Positions 3,842-18,334 of a DNA stretch of 20,874 nucleotides are shown one piece after another; positions within the stretch are counted from its first letter, which is position 1; every line of letters begins with the position of its first letter. The translations under genes and the position numbers were made by a program. Below the pieces are notes generated by a model, which was given only the letters and a program-made list of their open reading frames with translations, made no database searches and was not told the origin of the DNA. This stretch comes from a virus. The stretch is taken from positions 1-20,874 of IMG/VR virus record IMGVR_UViG_3300043395_002199; one strand, written 5' to 3'.

Positions 3842-4243
3842 ATGACTGCGCCCAAGCCTGCTGCGAAGAAGCCAGCAGCCCGCAAGCCCGCCGCCAAGAA
3901 GCCGGTGGCCGAGCCCGCCCCCAAGTTCGAGCCGTCCGGGCTGGACGAGTTCGCCAGCGTCGGTGATGAGGGCAGCAACCCCCCGGATGCACCGGCTGCG
4001 GTCGACACTGTCGAGCCCGTCGCTGGTCGCCCCAACCTGGTCGACGGCGCACGCGGCCAGCACGTCAAGGATCTGGAGGTCCTGCTGCACGAGCAGGGCT
4101 TCTACGACCGGGCCGCCCCGTCCGGCGTGTACGGGACCTCCCTGGCTCGCGCGGTTCGCCGCGCCCAGGGCCACTTCGGCTTGAAGCCGAACGGCAAGAC
4201 CGATCAGGCCCTGTGGGCCCATCTGGAAGGAGCAGGCAAGTGA
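3842..4243 (+). CDS. Peptidoglycan-binding domain protein without a catalytic domain
   Basis: This 133-residue protein has two parts. Residues 1-28 are a Lys/Ala/Pro-rich tail with repeated AAKKP/AARKP units, similar to histone H1-type tails. Residues about 69-129 match the PG_binding_1 fold: DGARGQHVKDLEVLL, then SGVYGTSLARAVRRAQ, then PNGKTDQALW. No amidase, peptidase or glycosidase motif is present, so it can bind cell wall but not obviously cut it. Start ATG 3842 has an AAAGGA ribosome site close upstream. It is coupled to the holin-like gene by a GTGA overlap. It could be the binding half of a split endolysin, a virion wall-binding protein, or a regulator of lysis. Confidence 0.75.
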   Translation: MTAPKPAAKKPAARKPAAKKPVAEPAPKFEPSGLDEFASVGDEGSNPPDAPAAVDTVEPVAGRPNLVDGARGQHVKDLEVLLHEQGFYDRAAPSGVYGTSLARAVRRAQGHFGLKPNGKTDQALWAHLEGAGK

Positions 4244-4700: not shown

Positions 4701-4728
4701 TTGACCCCTAACCCCTGTTGTGTATGAT
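4701..4728 (+). promoter_or_regulatory. Promoter for the gam operon
   Basis: TTGACC at 4701-4706 and TATGAT at 4723-4728 are separated by 16 bases, a near-consensus sigma-70-like arrangement. The spacer contains CTAACCCC (4708-4715) and TCGACC follows four bases after the -10 (4733-4738); both elements recur at other promoters in this window. A start near 4735 would give a leader of about 24 bases with AGGGAG ahead of ATG 4759. Confidence 0.75.
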
Positions 4729-4760: not shown

Positions 4761-5361
4761 GAGCCTTGACCTCGACGACTTCTACCGCCCCGAGGCGGAC
4801 CTGTTCGAGCGCGAGTACCGCCAGGCTGTCGAAGACGCCGCCACCCCGCAAGCCGAGCCCGGCGCTGAGCGCACGCCCGCCTTCCGTGTCGACTCAGACG
4901 CGAAGGCCACCTGGGCGATGCGCAAGTTGCGTGGCGTGAAGGCGCACATCCAGTCCAACCGCGACATCGCTGCCGCCGAGATTGAGCGCGTGCAGCAGTG
5001 GCTGGACGCCGTCAACGCGCCACTGGATCGTGACGCCCACTTCTTCACCGGCCTGCTCGAAGACTACGGCCTGAATCAGCGCGCCGAGTTCGACCGCAAG
5101 ACCATCCCCCTGCCCTACGGCACCATCTCCACCCGCGAGGGCACCCCCACGATCACGTTCGTGGACGAGGACGCCTTCGTGGCGTGGGCGACCGAGCACG
5201 CGCCGGACCTGCTGAAGACCACGGTGAAGCCGGTGCTGTCGGAGGCGAAGCGTATCCTCACCATCACCGATGACTTGAAGGTCATCAGTGGTGAGGGTGA
5301 AGTGGTGCCGGGTGCCTCCGGCACTGAGGCCAAGACCACCGTCACGATCAAGACCACCTGA
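4759..5361 (+). CDS. Gam-like host-nuclease inhibitor protein
   Basis: A 200-residue protein resembling the Mu Gam family, which binds free DNA ends and shields them from host exonucleases. Residues 45-100 form a long helical segment (DSDAKATWAMRKL, then RDIAAAEIERVQQWLD) as in the Gam coiled coil. Residues 100-160 contain the family-like stretch RKTIPLPYGTISTREGTPTI followed by AFVAWATEHAPDLLKTTV. The length is close to that of Mu Gam. Start ATG 4759 has AGGGAG just upstream and a good promoter 30 bases away; an in-frame start at 4720 would lie inside that promoter. It leads a two-gene operon with a strand-annealing protein, a classic pairing for phage recombination. Confidence 0.8.
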   Translation: MSLDLDDFYRPEADLFEREYRQAVEDAATPQAEPGAERTPAFRVDSDAKATWAMRKLRGVKAHIQSNRDIAAAEIERVQQWLDAVNAPLDRDAHFFTGLLEDYGLNQRAEFDRKTIPLPYGTISTREGTPTITFVDEDAFVAWATEHAPDLLKTTVKPVLSEAKRILTITDDLKVISGEGEVVPGASGTEAKTTVTIKTT

Positions 5362-6300: not shown

Positions 6301-6372
6301 GTGAGTCAGCCTACAAGGCGTCCCCAGAGCCGCACAACCAGCCAGCCCCAGCGTGTCGAGGGGGGCCGATGA
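6301..6372 (+). CDS. 23-codon leader peptide upstream of the initiator gene
   Basis: A GTG start at 6301 is preceded by an almost ideal GGAGGT ribosome site (6289-6294) with six-base spacing. The frame runs 23 codons and its TGA overlaps the initiator ATG (ATGA). The peptide is Pro/Arg/Gln/Ser-rich (VSQPTRRPQSRTTSQPQRV) and has no visible fold. GCTGAC (6295-6300) and GTCAGC (6305-6310) form a 6-bp stem whose GTGA loop is the start codon plus one base, a GNRA-type tetraloop. The best ribosome site in the operon thus serves the leader and not the initiator, which suggests translational coupling. A control role is inferred; the peptide itself may do nothing. Confidence 0.55.
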   Translation: MSQPTRRPQSRTTSQPQRVEGGR

Positions 6373-7205
6373 GCATCATCCGTGGGCCACGCCCCGAATC
6401 CGGCTACTCGATCCTGCGCAACGCCATCGTCCGTGACGACCGGCTGTCGTTCAAGGCGCGGGGCCTGCTCGCCTACCTGCTGTCGCATGACGAGGGCTGG
6501 CGGGTCTCCGCCGACCTGCTCGCCCAGCAGGGGCCCGACGGCCGCACCGCGATCCTGTCGGGCATGAAGGAGTTGGAGGAGGCGGGCTACCTGGTGCGGG
6601 TGAAGGACCGCAGCGAGGATGGGACCTTCGCCACTCACACCGTGGTCTACGAGGAGCCCCAGACCGAGAGTCCGGTTTGTCCGAAGTCAGGTTTCCCGAC
6701 GTCGGATGAACGGCCGTCGGATAACCCGCTTTCAATAGAAGTACCATCACAAGAACAACCAAGTAAGAACAAAGATGCTGCCCCGCCCCAGGCGGGCCAG
6801 CCCGCAGCCCCGTCGGCAGCAACTCAGTTGCCCCCGGCCAACGGGACGACAGCAACTCCCTTGGCGGGGGCGGTCCCGGAGCCGACCGTCAACCAGCGAG
6901 CCAACCTCTTGGCCAAGGCCTACTGCGACGCTCGCCCCATGAGTAACTTCCCTGCCGTCGCTGGAATCGTCCGCAAGGCCATCAACGCCGGTCACCCCGA
7001 TGAAGACATCACGCTCGCGCTCGGCCGCATCATCGCCAACAACCGGTCCCTTTCGGTGGAGATCCTGCGCGTCGAACTGGAAGGCCACGGCGACTACCGG
7101 CAGGGTCGACAGTCCGGCACCCAGCGGTACGTCGAAGCCAGCCGGGAACTGGGCCAGGCCTCACCGGCACTGTCGGCAGCCCAAGCCCTGGCGGTGGAGG
7201 CGTGA
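6369..7205 (+). CDS. Winged-helix replication initiator-like protein
   Basis: A 278-residue protein with an N-terminal winged helix (about residues 13-95): YSILRNAIVRDDRLSFKARG, then LAYLLSHDEGWRVSADLLA, then GMKELEEAGYLVRV and a wing ending in THTVVYEEP. This type is typical of phage O-like initiators and related DNA-binding replication proteins. Residues about 97-165 are a low-complexity linker, and about 174-275 a helical C-terminal domain of the sort that contacts loaders or helicases. The linker DNA carries four iteron-like repeats and an AT-rich stretch, as in lambda gene O. It starts in an ATGA overlap with the leader peptide, with a possible GAGGGG ribosome site just ahead, and ends in GTGA overlap with the next gene. 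Confidence 0.7.
   Translation: MSIIRGPRPESGYSILRNAIVRDDRLSFKARGLLAYLLSHDEGWRVSADLLAQQGPDGRTAILSGMKELEEAGYLVRVKDRSEDGTFATHTVVYEEPQTESPVCPKSGFPTSDERPSDNPLSIEVPSQEQPSKNKDAAPPQAGQPAAPSAATQLPPANGTTATPLAGAVPEPTVNQRANLLAKAYCDARPMSNFPAVAGIVRKAINAGHPDEDITLALGRIIANNRSLSVEILRVELEGHGDYRQGRQSGTQRYVEASRELGQASPALSAAQALAVEA
6670..6724. repeat. Four iteron-like repeats inside the initiator gene
   Basis: The core GTC(N)GGNT occurs at 6670 (GTCCGGTTT), 6686 (GTCAGGTTT), 6701 (GTCGGATGA) and 6716 (GTCGGATAA). Spacings are 16, 15 and 15 bases, all in one orientation. TTGTCCGAA at 6677-6685 matches seven of nine bases of the actinobacterial DnaA box TTGTCCACA. Confidence 0.6.
6670..6776. other. Candidate replication origin
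   Basis: Four evenly spaced repeats are followed at once by an A-rich segment, 6721-6776, with about 38 percent GC by hand count, inside a genome that is otherwise clearly GC-rich. The whole lies within the coding linker of the initiator gene. This is the layout of lambda-type origins, where the initiator binds iterons in its own gene and melts the flanking AT-rich DNA. The assignment is by analogy and position; no origin activity can be shown from sequence. Confidence 0.55.
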
Positions 7206-7546
7206 ACGCCGAGGAGGCCGCGCAAGTCCTGGCCATCGCTGCGACCCTCGACTTCAAGCACACCCCGCCGACGGCCGACGACGCCAAGGCCCGAGCCATC
7301 ACCTGGTCCGCTGCCCTCGATCACGACCTGGTGCTCGCCGACGCCCGGGGCATCGTCGTGAAGCACTACGCTGAGCGGGACGAGACCATCACCCCGGCCA
7401 TGGTCAACCGCGCCTGGCGCAGCATCCGCACCAAGCGGAACCAGGATGCAGCCCGCCAAGCCCGCAGCATCGAAGCCGTCCGTGGTGTGCCGATGCCGGA
7501 TGTGGTCCGGCAGATGCTGACCGGCTTGGGGAAGGATGAGGGATGA
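7202..7546 (+). CDS. Possible helicase-loader-like protein
   Basis: A 114-residue, mostly helical protein starting with GTG in overlap with the initiator stop. The pattern NAEEAAQVLAIAATLD, then ITWSAALDHDLVLADARGI, then DETITPAMVNRAWRSIR resembles small phage proteins of the helicase-loader type (SPP1 gp39-like). In these, alternating helices end in a motif such as I-x-P-x-x-V. Its place directly after a winged-helix initiator fits a loader that brings the host DnaB helicase to the origin. No ATPase motif is present. Similarity is weak and judged by eye, so a general replication accessory protein is the safer reading. Confidence 0.45.
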   Translation: MNAEEAAQVLAIAATLDFKHTPPTADDAKARAITWSAALDHDLVLADARGIVVKHYAERDETITPAMVNRAWRSIRTKRNQDAARQARSIEAVRGVPMPDVVRQMLTGLGKDEG

Positions 7547-9437: not shown

Positions 9438-11348
9438 ATGACCACGTCCACCTTGACGCATGCCCGCAATGCGGTCATTGCCGATGGACCCACCCTCATC
9501 ATCCGCTTCCGTTACAGCCCCGAGCGGGTCGATGACGTGCGCCGCATCACCGGCCGCAAGTGGAACCCGCAGCGCAAGGAATGGACCGCGCCCATGTCGA
9601 GCGCGGTGGAGGTGAAGGCCTTCGCCGACGCCCACGGCATTCCGTTCCTGACCGACGCCCCCGCCGGTGAGGATCAGCCGCTGGTCGTGTCCCGCTCCGG
9701 CAGCAGCCTGCTGCTGACCTTCGGCTACCACCCCACGCTCATCGAGCGGGTCCGGGAACTGCCCGGTGCGACCTGGTCCAACCACTCCAACGGCTGGCTG
9801 GTCGACCTGGAGGCCGCCATCGAGGTGGCTGAACTGGTGGAGCGGGGCCCCTCCGAGGTCACCACCCAGGCCAAGGCCGTCCTCGACGACGCGCACGCTG
9901 CGCTGCGCCGCATCGAGATGTCGAAGGCCACCGACAGCGACTTCGAGGTGCCGGGCTTCGGTGTTGACCTGTACCCCTTCCAGCGTGCGGGCATCGAGTA
10001 CGCCTGCCAGGTGCGCAACTGCATCATCGCCGACGAGCCCGGCCTGGGAAAGACCCGCCAGGCCCTCGGCGTGCTGCACATGACCGAGGCCTTCCCCGCC
10101 CTCATCGTGGTGCCCGCCGTGTCCCGCATCAACTGGCGGCGCGAGGCCACCAACGCACTGCCCGGCCGGACGGTGGAGATCCTGAAGGGTGTCAACCCGC
10201 AGCCGAGGCTAGACTGGCCCGACGTGACGATCGTGTCCTGGGATGCGGTCTACGCTCACGTCGACTACCTGCCCGAACTGAAGGGCTTCGTCGCCGACGA
10301 ATCACACCTGGCCAAGAACCCGCAGGCCCGCAGGACGAAAGCCTCCTACGTCGCCAGCGACAAGGTCGTCGACAACGGCATCACGCTGTGCCTGTCTGGC
10401 ACGCCAGTGCTCAACGGCCCGAAGGAACTGATCCCCCAGTTGCGGATCGCCCGCCTCCTCGGCTTCTTCGGTGGTGCCAGCGGCTTCACCAAGCGGTACG
10501 GCAAGGCCAACAACCTGGGTGAGTTGAATCGCCGCCTGCGCTCCGTCGGCTACGTCCGTCGCCGCAAGGAGGAGGTGCTGAAGGATCTCCCGCCGAAAGT
10601 GTGGGCCGACGTCGTCGTCGAAGGCGACCCCAAGATCATGGCCCAGTACCGCAAGGCCGAGGCCGACATCGTGGAGTACCTGGCGGAGAAGGCCCGCCGC
10701 CTGGCGGCATCGTCAGGCGCCTCGGTTGGTGAGCAGTCGGAGGCCGCGTGGCGTGCAGCGATGCGAGCCAGTGCCGCCGAACACCTGGTCGCCATCACCG
10801 CGCTGAAGCAGTTGGCTGCGCAGGCCAAGATGAAGGCCGCCCACGAATGGATCGACGACTTCCTGGGCTCGGGCAAGAAACTGGTGACGTTCGGCTGGCA
10901 CCGCGACATCGTCAACACTCTCGCCGACCGGTTCGCCGGTGGGGCCAAGGTGCAGGGCGGCATGAGTGACGCCGCCAAGCAGCAGTGGATCGACGCCTTC
11001 CAAGAGGACGACGACCAGAAGGTGATCTCCTGCCAGATCAAGGCCGCCGGTGTAGCCATCACCCTCACCGCAGCATCCGACGTGCTGTTCCTGGAGCAGG
11101 GCTGGACCCCGGCCGACATGGACCAAGCATCCGACCGCTGCCACCGCATCGGACAGGTTGACTCGGTGACCGCGTGGAACATGATCTGCGAGGGGACCAT
11201 CGACGAGGACTTCGCCGAACTGATCGCCGCCAAGCGCCGCATCGTGGACGCTGCAACCGACGGCAAGGATCCCGAGGAGGACCAGAAGCAGTCGGTGCTG
11301 GGTGACCTGGTGGTCCGTCTTGCCGAGCGTGGACTGGCGGGACACTAA
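9438..11348 (+). CDS. SNF2-family helicase with tandem HARP-like domains
   Basis: A 636-residue superfamily 2 ATPase. Two HARP-like repeats lie at the N-terminus: about residues 18-65 (RFRYSPERVDDVRRI, then KWNPQRKEW) and 78-130 (LTFGYHPTLIERVRELP, then TWSNHSNGW). The helicase core follows: Walker A DEPGLGKT (Lys205), DESH as motif II (Asp287), LSGTPVLN as motif III, and QASDRCHRIGQ as motif VI (around residue 570), the SNF2 hallmark. This layout matches SMARCAL1, whose paired HARP domains support strand annealing and fork regression. ATG 9438 has GGAGG close ahead. It probably remodels phage forks or recombination intermediates with Gam, the annealing protein and SSB. Confidence 0.85.
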   Translation: MTTSTLTHARNAVIADGPTLIIRFRYSPERVDDVRRITGRKWNPQRKEWTAPMSSAVEVKAFADAHGIPFLTDAPAGEDQPLVVSRSGSSLLLTFGYHPTLIERVRELPGATWSNHSNGWLVDLEAAIEVAELVERGPSEVTTQAKAVLDDAHAALRRIEMSKATDSDFEVPGFGVDLYPFQRAGIEYACQVRNCIIADEPGLGKTRQALGVLHMTEAFPALIVVPAVSRINWRREATNALPGRTVEILKGVNPQPRLDWPDVTIVSWDAVYAHVDYLPELKGFVADESHLAKNPQARRTKASYVASDKVVDNGITLCLSGTPVLNGPKELIPQLRIARLLGFFGGASGFTKRYGKANNLGELNRRLRSVGYVRRRKEEVLKDLPPKVWADVVVEGDPKIMAQYRKAEADIVEYLAEKARRLAASSGASVGEQSEAAWRAAMRASAAEHLVAITALKQLAAQAKMKAAHEWIDDFLGSGKKLVTFGWHRDIVNTLADRFAGGAKVQGGMSDAAKQQWIDAFQEDDDQKVISCQIKAAGVAITLTAASDVLFLEQGWTPADMDQASDRCHRIGQVDSVTAWNMICEGTIDEDFAELIAAKRRIVDAATDGKDPEEDQKQSVLGDLVVRLAERGLAGH

Positions 11349-11361
11349 CCGCTGTTACGAT
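11345..11361 (+). promoter_or_regulatory. Promoter giving a leaderless ParB/terminase transcript
   Basis: TACGAT (11356-11361) is preceded by TGT, an extended -10, and by CTAACC (11345-11350). A start at normal distance would fall at about 11367-11369, two to four bases from ATG 11371. No ribosome site lies between. Confidence 0.55.
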
Positions 11362-11370
11362 GTTGGCACC

Positions 11371-12552
11371 ATGCCAGCAGACATCAAGGTCGCCGTCGAG
11401 ACCGTCGCCATCTCGACCCTGCGCCCGCACCCGCTCAACGCCCGGCGCGGCGACGTCGACACCATCAGCGAATCGCTGGCCACACACGGCCAGTACCGCC
11501 CGGTCGTCGCCAGCCGCCGGACCAACCACATCCTCGGCGGGCATCACGTCATCAAGGCCGCCAAGAAACTGGGCTGGCGCACCATCGCCGTCACCTGGGT
11601 CGATGTCGATGCTGACGGGGAGCGCGCCATCCTGCTGGCCGACAACCGCACCAGTGACCTGGCCACCTACAACGACTCAGCACTGCTCGGACTCCTGGAG
11701 TCGCTGCCCGACCTGACCGGCACCGGCTTCACCCAGGCTGACCTCGACTCACTCACCTCCTTCGACACCTCCGGCCCGACCGGTGATGGATCCACCTCCT
11801 CACCGGTCGACACCGACCCGAAGGTGCGCGTCGGGCAGTGGCGCTTCAGCGTCGCCAAGGACGCCTACACCCCATGGGCCGATGAGATCCTGGTGCAGGT
11901 CGAGGGTAAGCGCAGCGTGGTCGCCCGCCACCTTCGTGGACTGCTCGGCATCCCCGAGCCCGTCGCCAAGCCCATCACCCCCGTCGCCAACACCGAGGCC
12001 GTCACCGAGACCGTCGACATCGACTCGGTCAAGCCGTACCCCGCCAACGCCCGCCAAGGTGACGTCGGCGCGATCGTCGAATCACTCGCGGTGCATGGCC
12101 AGTACCGGCCCATCGTGGTGAACCGGCGCGACGACACCATTCTCATCGGCAACCACACCTGGCGTGCAGCCAAGGGGCTCGGCTGGGACCGCATCGCTGT
12201 GGCCTGGGTCGATGTTGACGAGGTGCAGGCCGCCAAGATCGTCGTCGTCGACAACCGCACCTCCGACCTGGCCACCTACGACACCGACGGCCTGCGCGAC
12301 CTGCTGCGCGAGGTCGGCAACCTGTCCGGCACCGGCTACCTCCCCGAGGATGTCGCCGACATTCTGGACGGTGGATCCGGTCGGCCTGGACCGGGTCCCG
12401 CCGGTCGCACCACCATCAAGATCGGCGACTGGGGCATGCGCGTCACCGCCGAGGTGTTCAACCCGTGGGCCCGTGACGTTGACGGGCCACGCGACATCGC
12501 CCAGCGTCTCGGCCTGCCCATGGATTCATGTGACTTCGGAGAGGACTTCTAA
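11371..12552 (+). CDS. ParB-like protein with two tandem modules
   Basis: A 393-residue protein built from two copies of one module. Copy 1 has a ParB-like N-domain (about residues 8-128: HPLNARRGDVDTI, HGQYRPVV, ILGGHHVIKAAKKLGW, ADNRTSDLATY) and a small C-domain (about 150-200: VRVGQWRFSV, TPWADEI, ARHLRGLLGI). Copy 2 repeats this at about 211-330 (YPANARQGDV, HGQYRPIVV, LIGNHTWRAAKGLGW, VDNRTSDLATY) and 345-390 (IKIGDWGMRV, NPWARDV, AQRLGLP). Copy 1 has GGHH where copy 2 has the more usual GNHT. ParB-like folds bind DNA and CTP or act as nucleases. ATG 11371 has no ribosome site, suggesting a leaderless message. It is joined to TerS by a one-base overlap. Confidence 0.75.
   Translation: MPADIKVAVETVAISTLRPHPLNARRGDVDTISESLATHGQYRPVVASRRTNHILGGHHVIKAAKKLGWRTIAVTWVDVDADGERAILLADNRTSDLATYNDSALLGLLESLPDLTGTGFTQADLDSLTSFDTSGPTGDGSTSSPVDTDPKVRVGQWRFSVAKDAYTPWADEILVQVEGKRSVVARHLRGLLGIPEPVAKPITPVANTEAVTETVDIDSVKPYPANARQGDVGAIVESLAVHGQYRPIVVNRRDDTILIGNHTWRAAKGLGWDRIAVAWVDVDEVQAAKIVVVDNRTSDLATYDTDGLRDLLREVGNLSGTGYLPEDVADILDGGSGRPGPGPAGRTTIKIGDWGMRVTAEVFNPWARDVDGPRDIAQRLGLPMDSCDFGEDF
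11641..12279 (+). repeat. Direct DNA repeat from the ParB module duplication
   Basis: The 30 bases at 11641-11670 recur at 12250-12279 with three differences, encoding DNRTSDLATY both times, 609 bases apart. Other parts of the modules are similar in protein but more diverged in DNA, so the duplication looks old, with this block best conserved. Confidence 0.7.
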
Positions 12553-17131: not shown

Positions 17132-17361
17132 CCCTGTTCCGACGCCGCCGGGCGCCCCAGCCGCCCCGGCCCATCATCCACATCACCGGCCTGGGTGAAT
17201 ACGACCTGGCCGAAAGCCCGCAGTGGCGCTACGTCACCACCCTCGAAGGCCGTGTCGTCGACTCCGGCCACCGCTTCAAGAGCCGCGACTCCGCAGTGAA
17301 GGCGGCCAACCGCCGCATCGCCCAGGGCTTCACGACCTTCGATGAATGGAGCATCGCCTGA
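17128..17361 (+). CDS. Small alpha/beta protein of unknown function
   Basis: A 77-residue protein, starting in ATGA overlap with AAGGAGA seven bases upstream. A basic N-terminus (RRRRAPQPPRP) precedes a small fold: IIHITGLGEYDLAESPQW, then YVTTLEGRVVDSGHRFKSRD, then SAVKAANRRIAQG. The strand-strand-helix pattern resembles DUF1508-like or dsRBD-like mini-domains, but no firm match can be made. Its stop overlaps the ssb start. Confidence 0.6.
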   Translation: MTLFRRRRAPQPPRPIIHITGLGEYDLAESPQWRYVTTLEGRVVDSGHRFKSRDSAVKAANRRIAQGFTTFDEWSIA

Positions 17362-17852
17362 TGTCCAGCACCGACATCGTCCTGTACGGACGCCTCACCG
17401 AAGACCCGTCCCTGCGCTTCACCCCCTCCGGCAAGCCGGTTGCATCGTTCCGCGTGCTCACCTCCCGTTCTCGGAAGAACGACCAGACCAACGAGTGGGA
17501 GAACCTCGACACCACGGGGTGGAACTGCTCCGCCTGGGATCGCCTGGCCGAGAACCTGTGCGAGTCGCTGGCCAAGGGTGACCCGGTCATCGTGACCGGC
17601 CGCGCCTACCAGCGCCAGTACGAGACCCGCGACGGCGGCAAGGGGTACAGCCTCGACGTGCAGGTCACCTCCGTCGGCCCGGACCTCCGCTACGCCCAGG
17701 CCAGGACGCACCGCCCCCAGCGCAACGACGCCGCACCCCAGCAACAGCGCCAGCAGCAGCGTCCGGCGGCCAACGACGACCCGTGGGCCAGCAGCGCCCA
17801 GCCGGTCAACGACCCGTGGTCCACGCCCGTCAACGACGAGCCCCCGTTTTGA
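17361..17852 (+). CDS. ssb: Single-stranded DNA-binding protein
   Basis: A 163-residue SSB. The OB fold spans about residues 1-112 (VLYGRLTEDPSLRFTPSGKP, then FRVLTSRSR, WNCSAWDRLAENLCESLAKG, VIVTGRAYQRQYE, LDVQVTSVGPDLRY). A Gln/Pro/Asn-rich linker follows, and the tail ends in NDEPPF, the acidic tip that recruits partner proteins. ATG 17361 overlaps the upstream stop (TGATG); an in-frame ATG at 17346 would lack a reason to be used. It should coat strands at forks and help the annealing protein. A perfect 17-bp inverted repeat begins two bases after its stop. Confidence 0.93.
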   Translation: MSSTDIVLYGRLTEDPSLRFTPSGKPVASFRVLTSRSRKNDQTNEWENLDTTGWNCSAWDRLAENLCESLAKGDPVIVTGRAYQRQYETRDGGKGYSLDVQVTSVGPDLRYAQARTHRPQRNDAAPQQQRQQQRPAANDDPWASSAQPVNDPWSTPVNDEPPF

Positions 17853-17853
17853 T

Positions 17854-17900
17854 GATCTGGTGTGCTAAGGTTTAGAACATGAGCCTTAGCACACCAGATC
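17854..17900 (+). repeat. Perfect 17-bp inverted repeat around the HNH start codon
   Basis: GATCTGGTGTGCTAAGG (17854-17870) is the exact reverse complement of CCTTAGCACACCAGATC (17884-17900), with a 13-base loop (17871-17883). The ATG 17879 lies in the loop, and the likely ribosome site TAAGG (17866-17870) lies in the left arm. The hairpin begins two bases after the ssb stop, so it may also end the ssb transcript. Confidence 0.9.
17863..17871 (+). promoter_or_regulatory. Possible extended -10 promoter for the HNH gene
   Basis: TGC followed by TAAGGT (17866-17871) forms an extended -10. A start seven to eight bases on would fall at about 17878-17879, the A of the start codon. Such an RNA would be leaderless and lack the left arm of the hairpin. 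No -35 at correct spacing is visible. Confidence 0.35.
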
Positions 17901-18334
17901 GCGTGGCGTTGCGCATCGAGAAGTTCACAGAGCAACAGGGCGAGTGCCTGGTGAGCCTGTACTCGATAGGTTCACACGGTTACGCGCAGATCGGTTGGAA
18001 TGAAGATGGAAAGAGCGTGGTGACTGTCGCGCATAGGGCGCTTTGGATCTCCCGACGCGGCCCTGTGCCGGAAGGACATGTGGTGGATCACATCTGCCAC
18101 AACAAGCGGTGCGTGCGACTCGACCACCTCCGCCTTCTGACCAACTACGAGAACGCCAGGCGAACCAATGGCCGCGACTGGCCTCTTGGTGAGTGTGTGA
18201 ACGGACATCCAAACAGCGAACTGGTTACCGCAAGTTCCGGCAAGCGCATCTGTCGCCCCTGTCGGAACGAGTGGCAGCGGCGGTACCGAGCCAAGCAGAA
18301 AGGTCTAGGCCATGGCGACGATCAACGCCGGTGA
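17879..18334 (+). CDS. Free-standing HNH homing-type endonuclease
   Basis: A 151-residue HNH_3-type protein. The core (residues 50-90) reads VAHRALWISRRGPVPEGHVV, then DHICHNKRCVRLDHLRLLTN, with Asp70-His71 and Asn75 of the active site. A second zinc motif follows (CVNGHPNSE, then CRPCRNEWQRRYRAK, using Cys106, His110, Cys125 and Cys128). The gene is visibly poorer in GC than its neighbours, uses codons such as ATA, AGG and GGT more freely, and its end overlaps the next gene by 23 bases. These are signs of a recent arrival. Start codon and ribosome site are enclosed in a perfect hairpin. Free-standing HNH nucleases spread by cutting phages that lack them. Confidence 0.85.
   Translation: MSLSTPDRVALRIEKFTEQQGECLVSLYSIGSHGYAQIGWNEDGKSVVTVAHRALWISRRGPVPEGHVVDHICHNKRCVRLDHLRLLTNYENARRTNGRDWPLGECVNGHPNSELVTASSGKRICRPCRNEWQRRYRAKQKGLGHGDDQRR

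Follow-up and report, generated by a model that had tools for sequence, protein, structure and literature searches.

The question raised by the window, a virus record of 20,874 bases that we analysed over its entire length, is whether short repeats and an A-rich block lying within the gene for a replication initiator constitute a replication origin. Origins of actinobacterial phages are poorly mapped, and the sole experimental study that we found among open-licence papers, of the mycobacterial prophages Miko, Rachaly and Jeeves, suspected an origin in or beside repA, with no repeats found in the regions that its authors searched (PMC7157519). The record most likely represents part of the genome of an uncultured actinobacterial phage, as the large terminase that it encodes is ~52% identical to the terminases of Arthrobacter phages such as Wheelbite and Laroye. 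We found no phage match to the window at the nucleotide level, and searches of viral contigs with single proteins turned up no close relatives.

A repeat array and an A-rich block within the initiator gene

The gene in question (6369-7205, plus strand) encodes a protein of 278 amino acids that matches PHROG families of helix-turn-helix DNA-binding and replication-initiation proteins (best match 5e-26). The protein is predicted to comprise an N-terminal winged helix (aa 3-98), a disordered linker (~aa 100-170) and a C-terminal helical domain (aa 174-238). It is the first 98 residues that match the phage replication-initiation families in PHROG; the score against Pfam HTH_36 is 21.3, under the cut-off of 25. 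In the structure model, pLDDT is above 90 over most of aa 20-100 and ~45-50 over aa 101-160, and the DNA of interest encodes the first part of this predicted disordered stretch. The array lies, as had been proposed from the sequence, in the part of the gene that encodes the linker. The better fold matches of the N-domain included RctB domain 1, DnaD and a RepA_N-type Rep, at Z scores of 7-8 that are suggestive, not decisive. A sequence search of the PDB with the N-domain returned just weak MarR-like matches, and no homologues of the C-terminal half were found in the phage records searched.

Four copies of GTC(N)GGNT start at 6670 (GTCCGGTT), 6686 (GTCAGGTT), 6701 and 6716 (both GTCGGAT, in which the optional N is missing); the iterons that contain them take up nt 298-357 of the gene. 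These positions, the spacing of 15-16 bp and the A-rich block that follows are exactly those of the original prediction. Nowhere else in the window do four copies fall inside 60 bp, and none of 300 dinucleotide shuffles produced such a cluster. As defined from relatives (see below), the iteron unit is 15 nt long, with a palindromic core of 10 bp joined to a spacer of 5 nt that is often A/T-rich. On the plus strand of the window, the first iteron (6666-6680, GAGAGTCCGGTTTGT; unit GAGAGTCCGG TTTGT) is degenerate and holds the copy at 6670. It is followed by iteron 2 (6681-6695, CCGAAGTCAGGTTTC; unit CCGAAGTCAG GTTTC), iteron 3 (6696-6710, CCGACGTCGG ATGAA), which has a perfect 10-bp palindromic core, and iteron 4 (6711-6725, CGGCCGTCGG ATAAC).

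We dropped self-match at a lag of 15 as a proof in itself. The array scores 20/30, which is equalled at several other places in the window and is unexceptional against synonymous recoding (p = 0.18), so that it is the clustering of the motif and the evidence from relatives that carry the case. Lag-15 repeats also occur at 3846-3912, in a coding stretch of lysine/alanine/proline type (CTGCGAAGAAGCCAGCAGCCCGCAAGCCCGCC); these are unrelated to the array.

Directly downstream lies the putative DNA-unwinding element, an A-rich block at 6730-6779 (plus strand). The 50 bases from 6730 are, at 34% GC, the GC minimum of the 20.9-kb window, the next lowest value being 42% at 17847. The block holds the hexamers AAGTAC at 6739 and AAGAAC at 6751 and 6765, a triplet inside 30 nt that was seen in 0 of 300 shuffles and whose members, judging by their coordinates, fall in two different reading frames. 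The second A+T-rich patch of the window (17847-18237, 42-50% GC) coincides with a small HNH-like gene (17879-18334) and is possibly a recent insertion.

A further feature that had been put forward, and a check that had been proposed, gave no support. The near DnaA box TTGTCCGAA at 6677 is present but has two mismatches to TTRTCCACA; because such two-mismatch sites occur in the window at chance level (63 against 58 expected), it carries no weight, and within 3.9 kb of the array there is no site with one mismatch or fewer. Cumulative GC skew falls steadily through the window with no minimum at 6.7 kb, a profile that is uninformative because the sequence is a fragment.

Recurrence in relatives and conservation at the DNA level

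We examined 80 viral-contig, 16 phage and 28 genome loci. These relatives were picked by similarity of the N-domain and hence are not independent samples, a dependence that use of a non-redundant set lessens only partly; their start codons were set mechanically, which makes zone coordinates approximate. 15-nt repeats and then an A-rich block come right after the winged-helix region in most loci from viral contigs and phages, a favourable outcome for the original prediction, which had named absence of these elements from related phages as evidence against it. Among the exceptions are BruhMoment and Ponzi, in which we found no clear array or AT-rich block and which therefore may use another site. 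Across 62 non-redundant linkers, the autocorrelation peaked at lag 15 (0.39 against a background of ~0.26) and again at lag 30. The winged-helix regions of these genes had no lag-15 peak, and arrays in non-coding DNA gave 0.40. AAGAAC is present in the A-block of 33 of the 62 loci (3.0 expected from neighbouring DNA), and consecutive AAGNA(C/T) motifs in the relatives' A-blocks are most commonly spaced 14-15 nt apart.

This recurrence bears on whether the repeats simply came together by chance, in a linker of low complexity. Such an explanation can point to the degeneracy of one copy in four and to the frequency of loose matches to the core in DNA of 66% GC (51 sites with two or fewer mismatches). 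The failure of every shuffle to yield the cluster, together with relatives that carry the same design in the same place, makes chance an extremely improbable source of the array.

Alternatively, the repeats could be a by-product of selection on the protein, with the linker peptide (GFPTSD-ERPSDN, then a Q/E/K/N stretch) serving as a flexible spacer. The predicted disorder of the linker fits this idea, as does the lag-15 score of the window array, which lies within the range of synonymous recoding. However, A/T-ending codons of the A-rich block are far above synonymous expectation, with none of 400 recodings of the same peptide as low in GC, and in relatives the arrays run in differing reading frames and continue past stop codons. 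In six of them (L020, L022, L027, L030, L052 and L053), the initiator gene is cut to the winged-helix domain and the array lies in non-coding DNA past the stop codon.

From sequence strictly past the stop codons of these six relatives, and from nothing else, we built a DNA profile. This non-coding profile matches the window solely at 6681-6752 (19.2 bits, E 3e-4), with a weaker match to the same palindromes on the reverse strand. The alignment takes in iterons 2 and 3 and leaves iteron 1 outside; it contains one 15-nt insertion (6707-6721), a whole extra iteron, such that with iteron 4 the window exceeds the profile by one repeat. Over all loci, the profile gave 56 matches at E<=0.1, all of them in the linker zone and none elsewhere, and in five sets of shuffled DNA it scored at most 8.2 bits. 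Iteron cores encode PTSxx-type peptides in 30 loci, where they are translated in one frame, and peptides of S-G/D type in 16 loci, where they are translated in another; the three reading frames of relatives contain AAGNAC 34, 32 and 30 times. Because the iterons encode differing peptides in two frames while AAGNAC is equally common in all three, and because the repeat and A-rich signature sometimes sits just outside the gene, these comparisons argue that the constraint acts on the DNA and not on the encoded protein. We consider the protein-level explanation very unlikely.

When genome-contig relatives were scanned with the non-coding profile there was no significant match, yet similar arrays with different core sequences are visible in them by eye; evidently, the iteron sequence diverges along with the initiator. 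Circular plasmids of Brevibacillus laterosporus and Prescottella equi that encode homologous initiators have similar 15-bp arrays in the same place in the gene. In six gammaproteobacterial loci (L108, L111, L114, L116, L119 and L122), 15-nt repeats of CCGGATACGG type are followed by ACTACTAC runs and further on by GTAGTAGT runs; the runs after the iterons resemble DnaA-trio elements.

Strict DnaA boxes are concentrated in the same zone of the relatives, 29 of the 33 found in 319 kb falling at gene nt 250-500, in 18 loci. In ten loci (L020, L022, L026, L028, L030, L038, L046, L052, L053 and L058), such boxes (TTATCCACA) lie at gene nt ~287-330, between the winged-helix region and the iterons, often two or three together and ~12 nt apart. 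Their placement suggests that host DnaA takes part in the origins of these relatives.

A joint reading of these observations, which we put forward tentatively as possible rather than probable, is that the 15-bp palindromic iteron and the AAGAAC-repeat block form one inherited origin design of phages and plasmids of Actinomycetota, Bacillota and Gammaproteobacteria. DnaA boxes would have been added in some lineages, truncation of the protein would have left the design outside the gene in others, and the initiator would recognise the repeats of the A-block as single-stranded DNA, which would make them a second recognition code.

Comparison with known origins

Judged by sequence, the best-documented relative of the window initiator is gp20 of Staphylococcus phage 80alpha, whose N-domain is homologous (BLASTP E 3e-18, 33% over 99 aa; hhalign 99.5%). 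The 80alpha gene contains the palindromic iterons CCAACGTTGG, CCGTTAACGG, CCAACAATGG and CCGTTAATGG at exact 15-bp steps, followed by an AT-rich block of 15-bp repeats in the same place in the gene as in the window, and both elements fall inside the annotated putative origin of that phage. Genes for an annealing protein and an SSB are likewise common to the two, in the same region or fragment. 80alpha differs in its AT-rich iteron sequences and its other C-terminal half, and also in the gene that comes next, which encodes a DnaC-like loader in 80alpha and, in the window, a 114-aa protein matching just families of unknown function. Because ORF20 of 80alpha could not be complemented in trans and ORF20-21 were enough for plasmid replication, the authors of that work placed the origin in ORF20 (PMC5499656).

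The 80alpha findings also bear on the possibility that the repeats serve as an operator, to which the winged-helix protein would bind for autoregulation or early-gene control, rather than as an origin. An operator would accommodate the palindromic form of the sites, their location in a gene for a DNA-binding protein, and their placement 3' of the stop codon in the six relatives with truncated genes. They are, however, ~300 nt into the gene or after it, not at its promoter, and the A-rich block after them is conserved and contains repeats of its own; in 80alpha, the counterpart lies in the annotated putative origin and its gene could not be complemented in trans (PMC5499656). We therefore regard an operator as unlikely.

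The locus had been described as lambda-style, and this holds for the arrangement, although not for kinship. In lambda ori, as in the window, the initiator gene contains four iterons of palindromic form together with an A-rich block, with the iterons at nt 349-433 of gene O as against nt 298-357 here. The lambda iterons are, however, 18 bp long and 20-24 bp apart in the lambda annotation, compared with the 15-16 bp spacing of the window. Kinship with lambda O is not supported by sequence, as profile comparison detected no relationship (hhalign probability 0.35%, E 0.17), and the matches of the window initiator to PHROG families labelled O-like are weak (1e-4 and 3e-4).

Several other systems share parts of this arrangement. 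In phage SPP1, oriL lies in gene 38, so that direct repeats and an AT-rich unwinding element bound by gp38 are inside the initiator gene (PMC6316719); SPP1, which we liken to the window by description alone, differs in having another origin besides oriL and in encoding a helicase and loader itself. In the RepA_N plasmid pSK41 and the hybrid pPR9, the origin is central in rep and encodes a dispensable linker, the N-domain is a winged helix, and pPR9 carries the HTH family pfam13730 (PMC5703833). RepA_N-type Rep folds match the window N-domain at Z 7.7 (4pql) and 7.1 (5kbj), values below 8 that are not decisive and are similar to those of other initiator and regulator folds, and pSK41 Rep belongs to another sequence family. 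The RepA proteins of Miko, Rachaly and Jeeves are larger, at 320-350 aa, than the 278-aa window initiator.

A model for initiation and its setting in the fragment

The best explanation of the evidence as a whole, and one that we consider very probable, is that the region from ~6666 to 6779 is a replication origin of the 80alpha kind, a putative site of initiator binding, melting and helicase loading. The core of the original prediction, that the initiator gene itself contains an origin made up of iterons and an AT-rich block, is strongly supported by the comparative evidence. We infer that the initiator, probably dimeric, would use its winged-helix domain to bind the tandem array of four palindromic 15-bp iterons, and that the nucleoprotein array would strain and then melt the adjoining A-rich block. 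The AAGAAC-type repeats, ~12-15 nt apart, may be held single-stranded by the initiator, which we offer as a suggestion only. The C-terminal domain of the initiator, the product of the next gene, or both would then bring in the replicative helicase, presumably that of the host because no DnaB-type helicase was recognised in the 20.9-kb fragment.

The next gene (7202-7546, plus strand), which overlaps the initiator gene, encodes the helical 114-aa protein, with matches to PHROG 6055 and 8924, both of unknown function, and a helical structure model of low confidence (pLDDT 62). It occupies the position of the helicase loader of lambda and 80alpha, and the phage records searched for its homologues contained none. 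Other genes near the initiator fit a replication region: the one at 4720 encodes a Mu Gam-like protein and the one at 5288 a single-strand annealing protein. Elsewhere in the fragment, an SNF2-type helicase is encoded at 9438 and there is an SSB gene at 17346.

The combination of a winged-helix initiator, 15-bp palindromic iterons and an AAGAAC block provides a searchable signature that is amenable to tests by silent mutation and to the building of small vectors, and arrays located outside the gene make the role of the DNA separable from that of the protein. Elsewhere in the window, the ParB-like protein encoded at 11302-12552 consists of two similar halves (~aa 29-163 and 226-356), an internal duplication.
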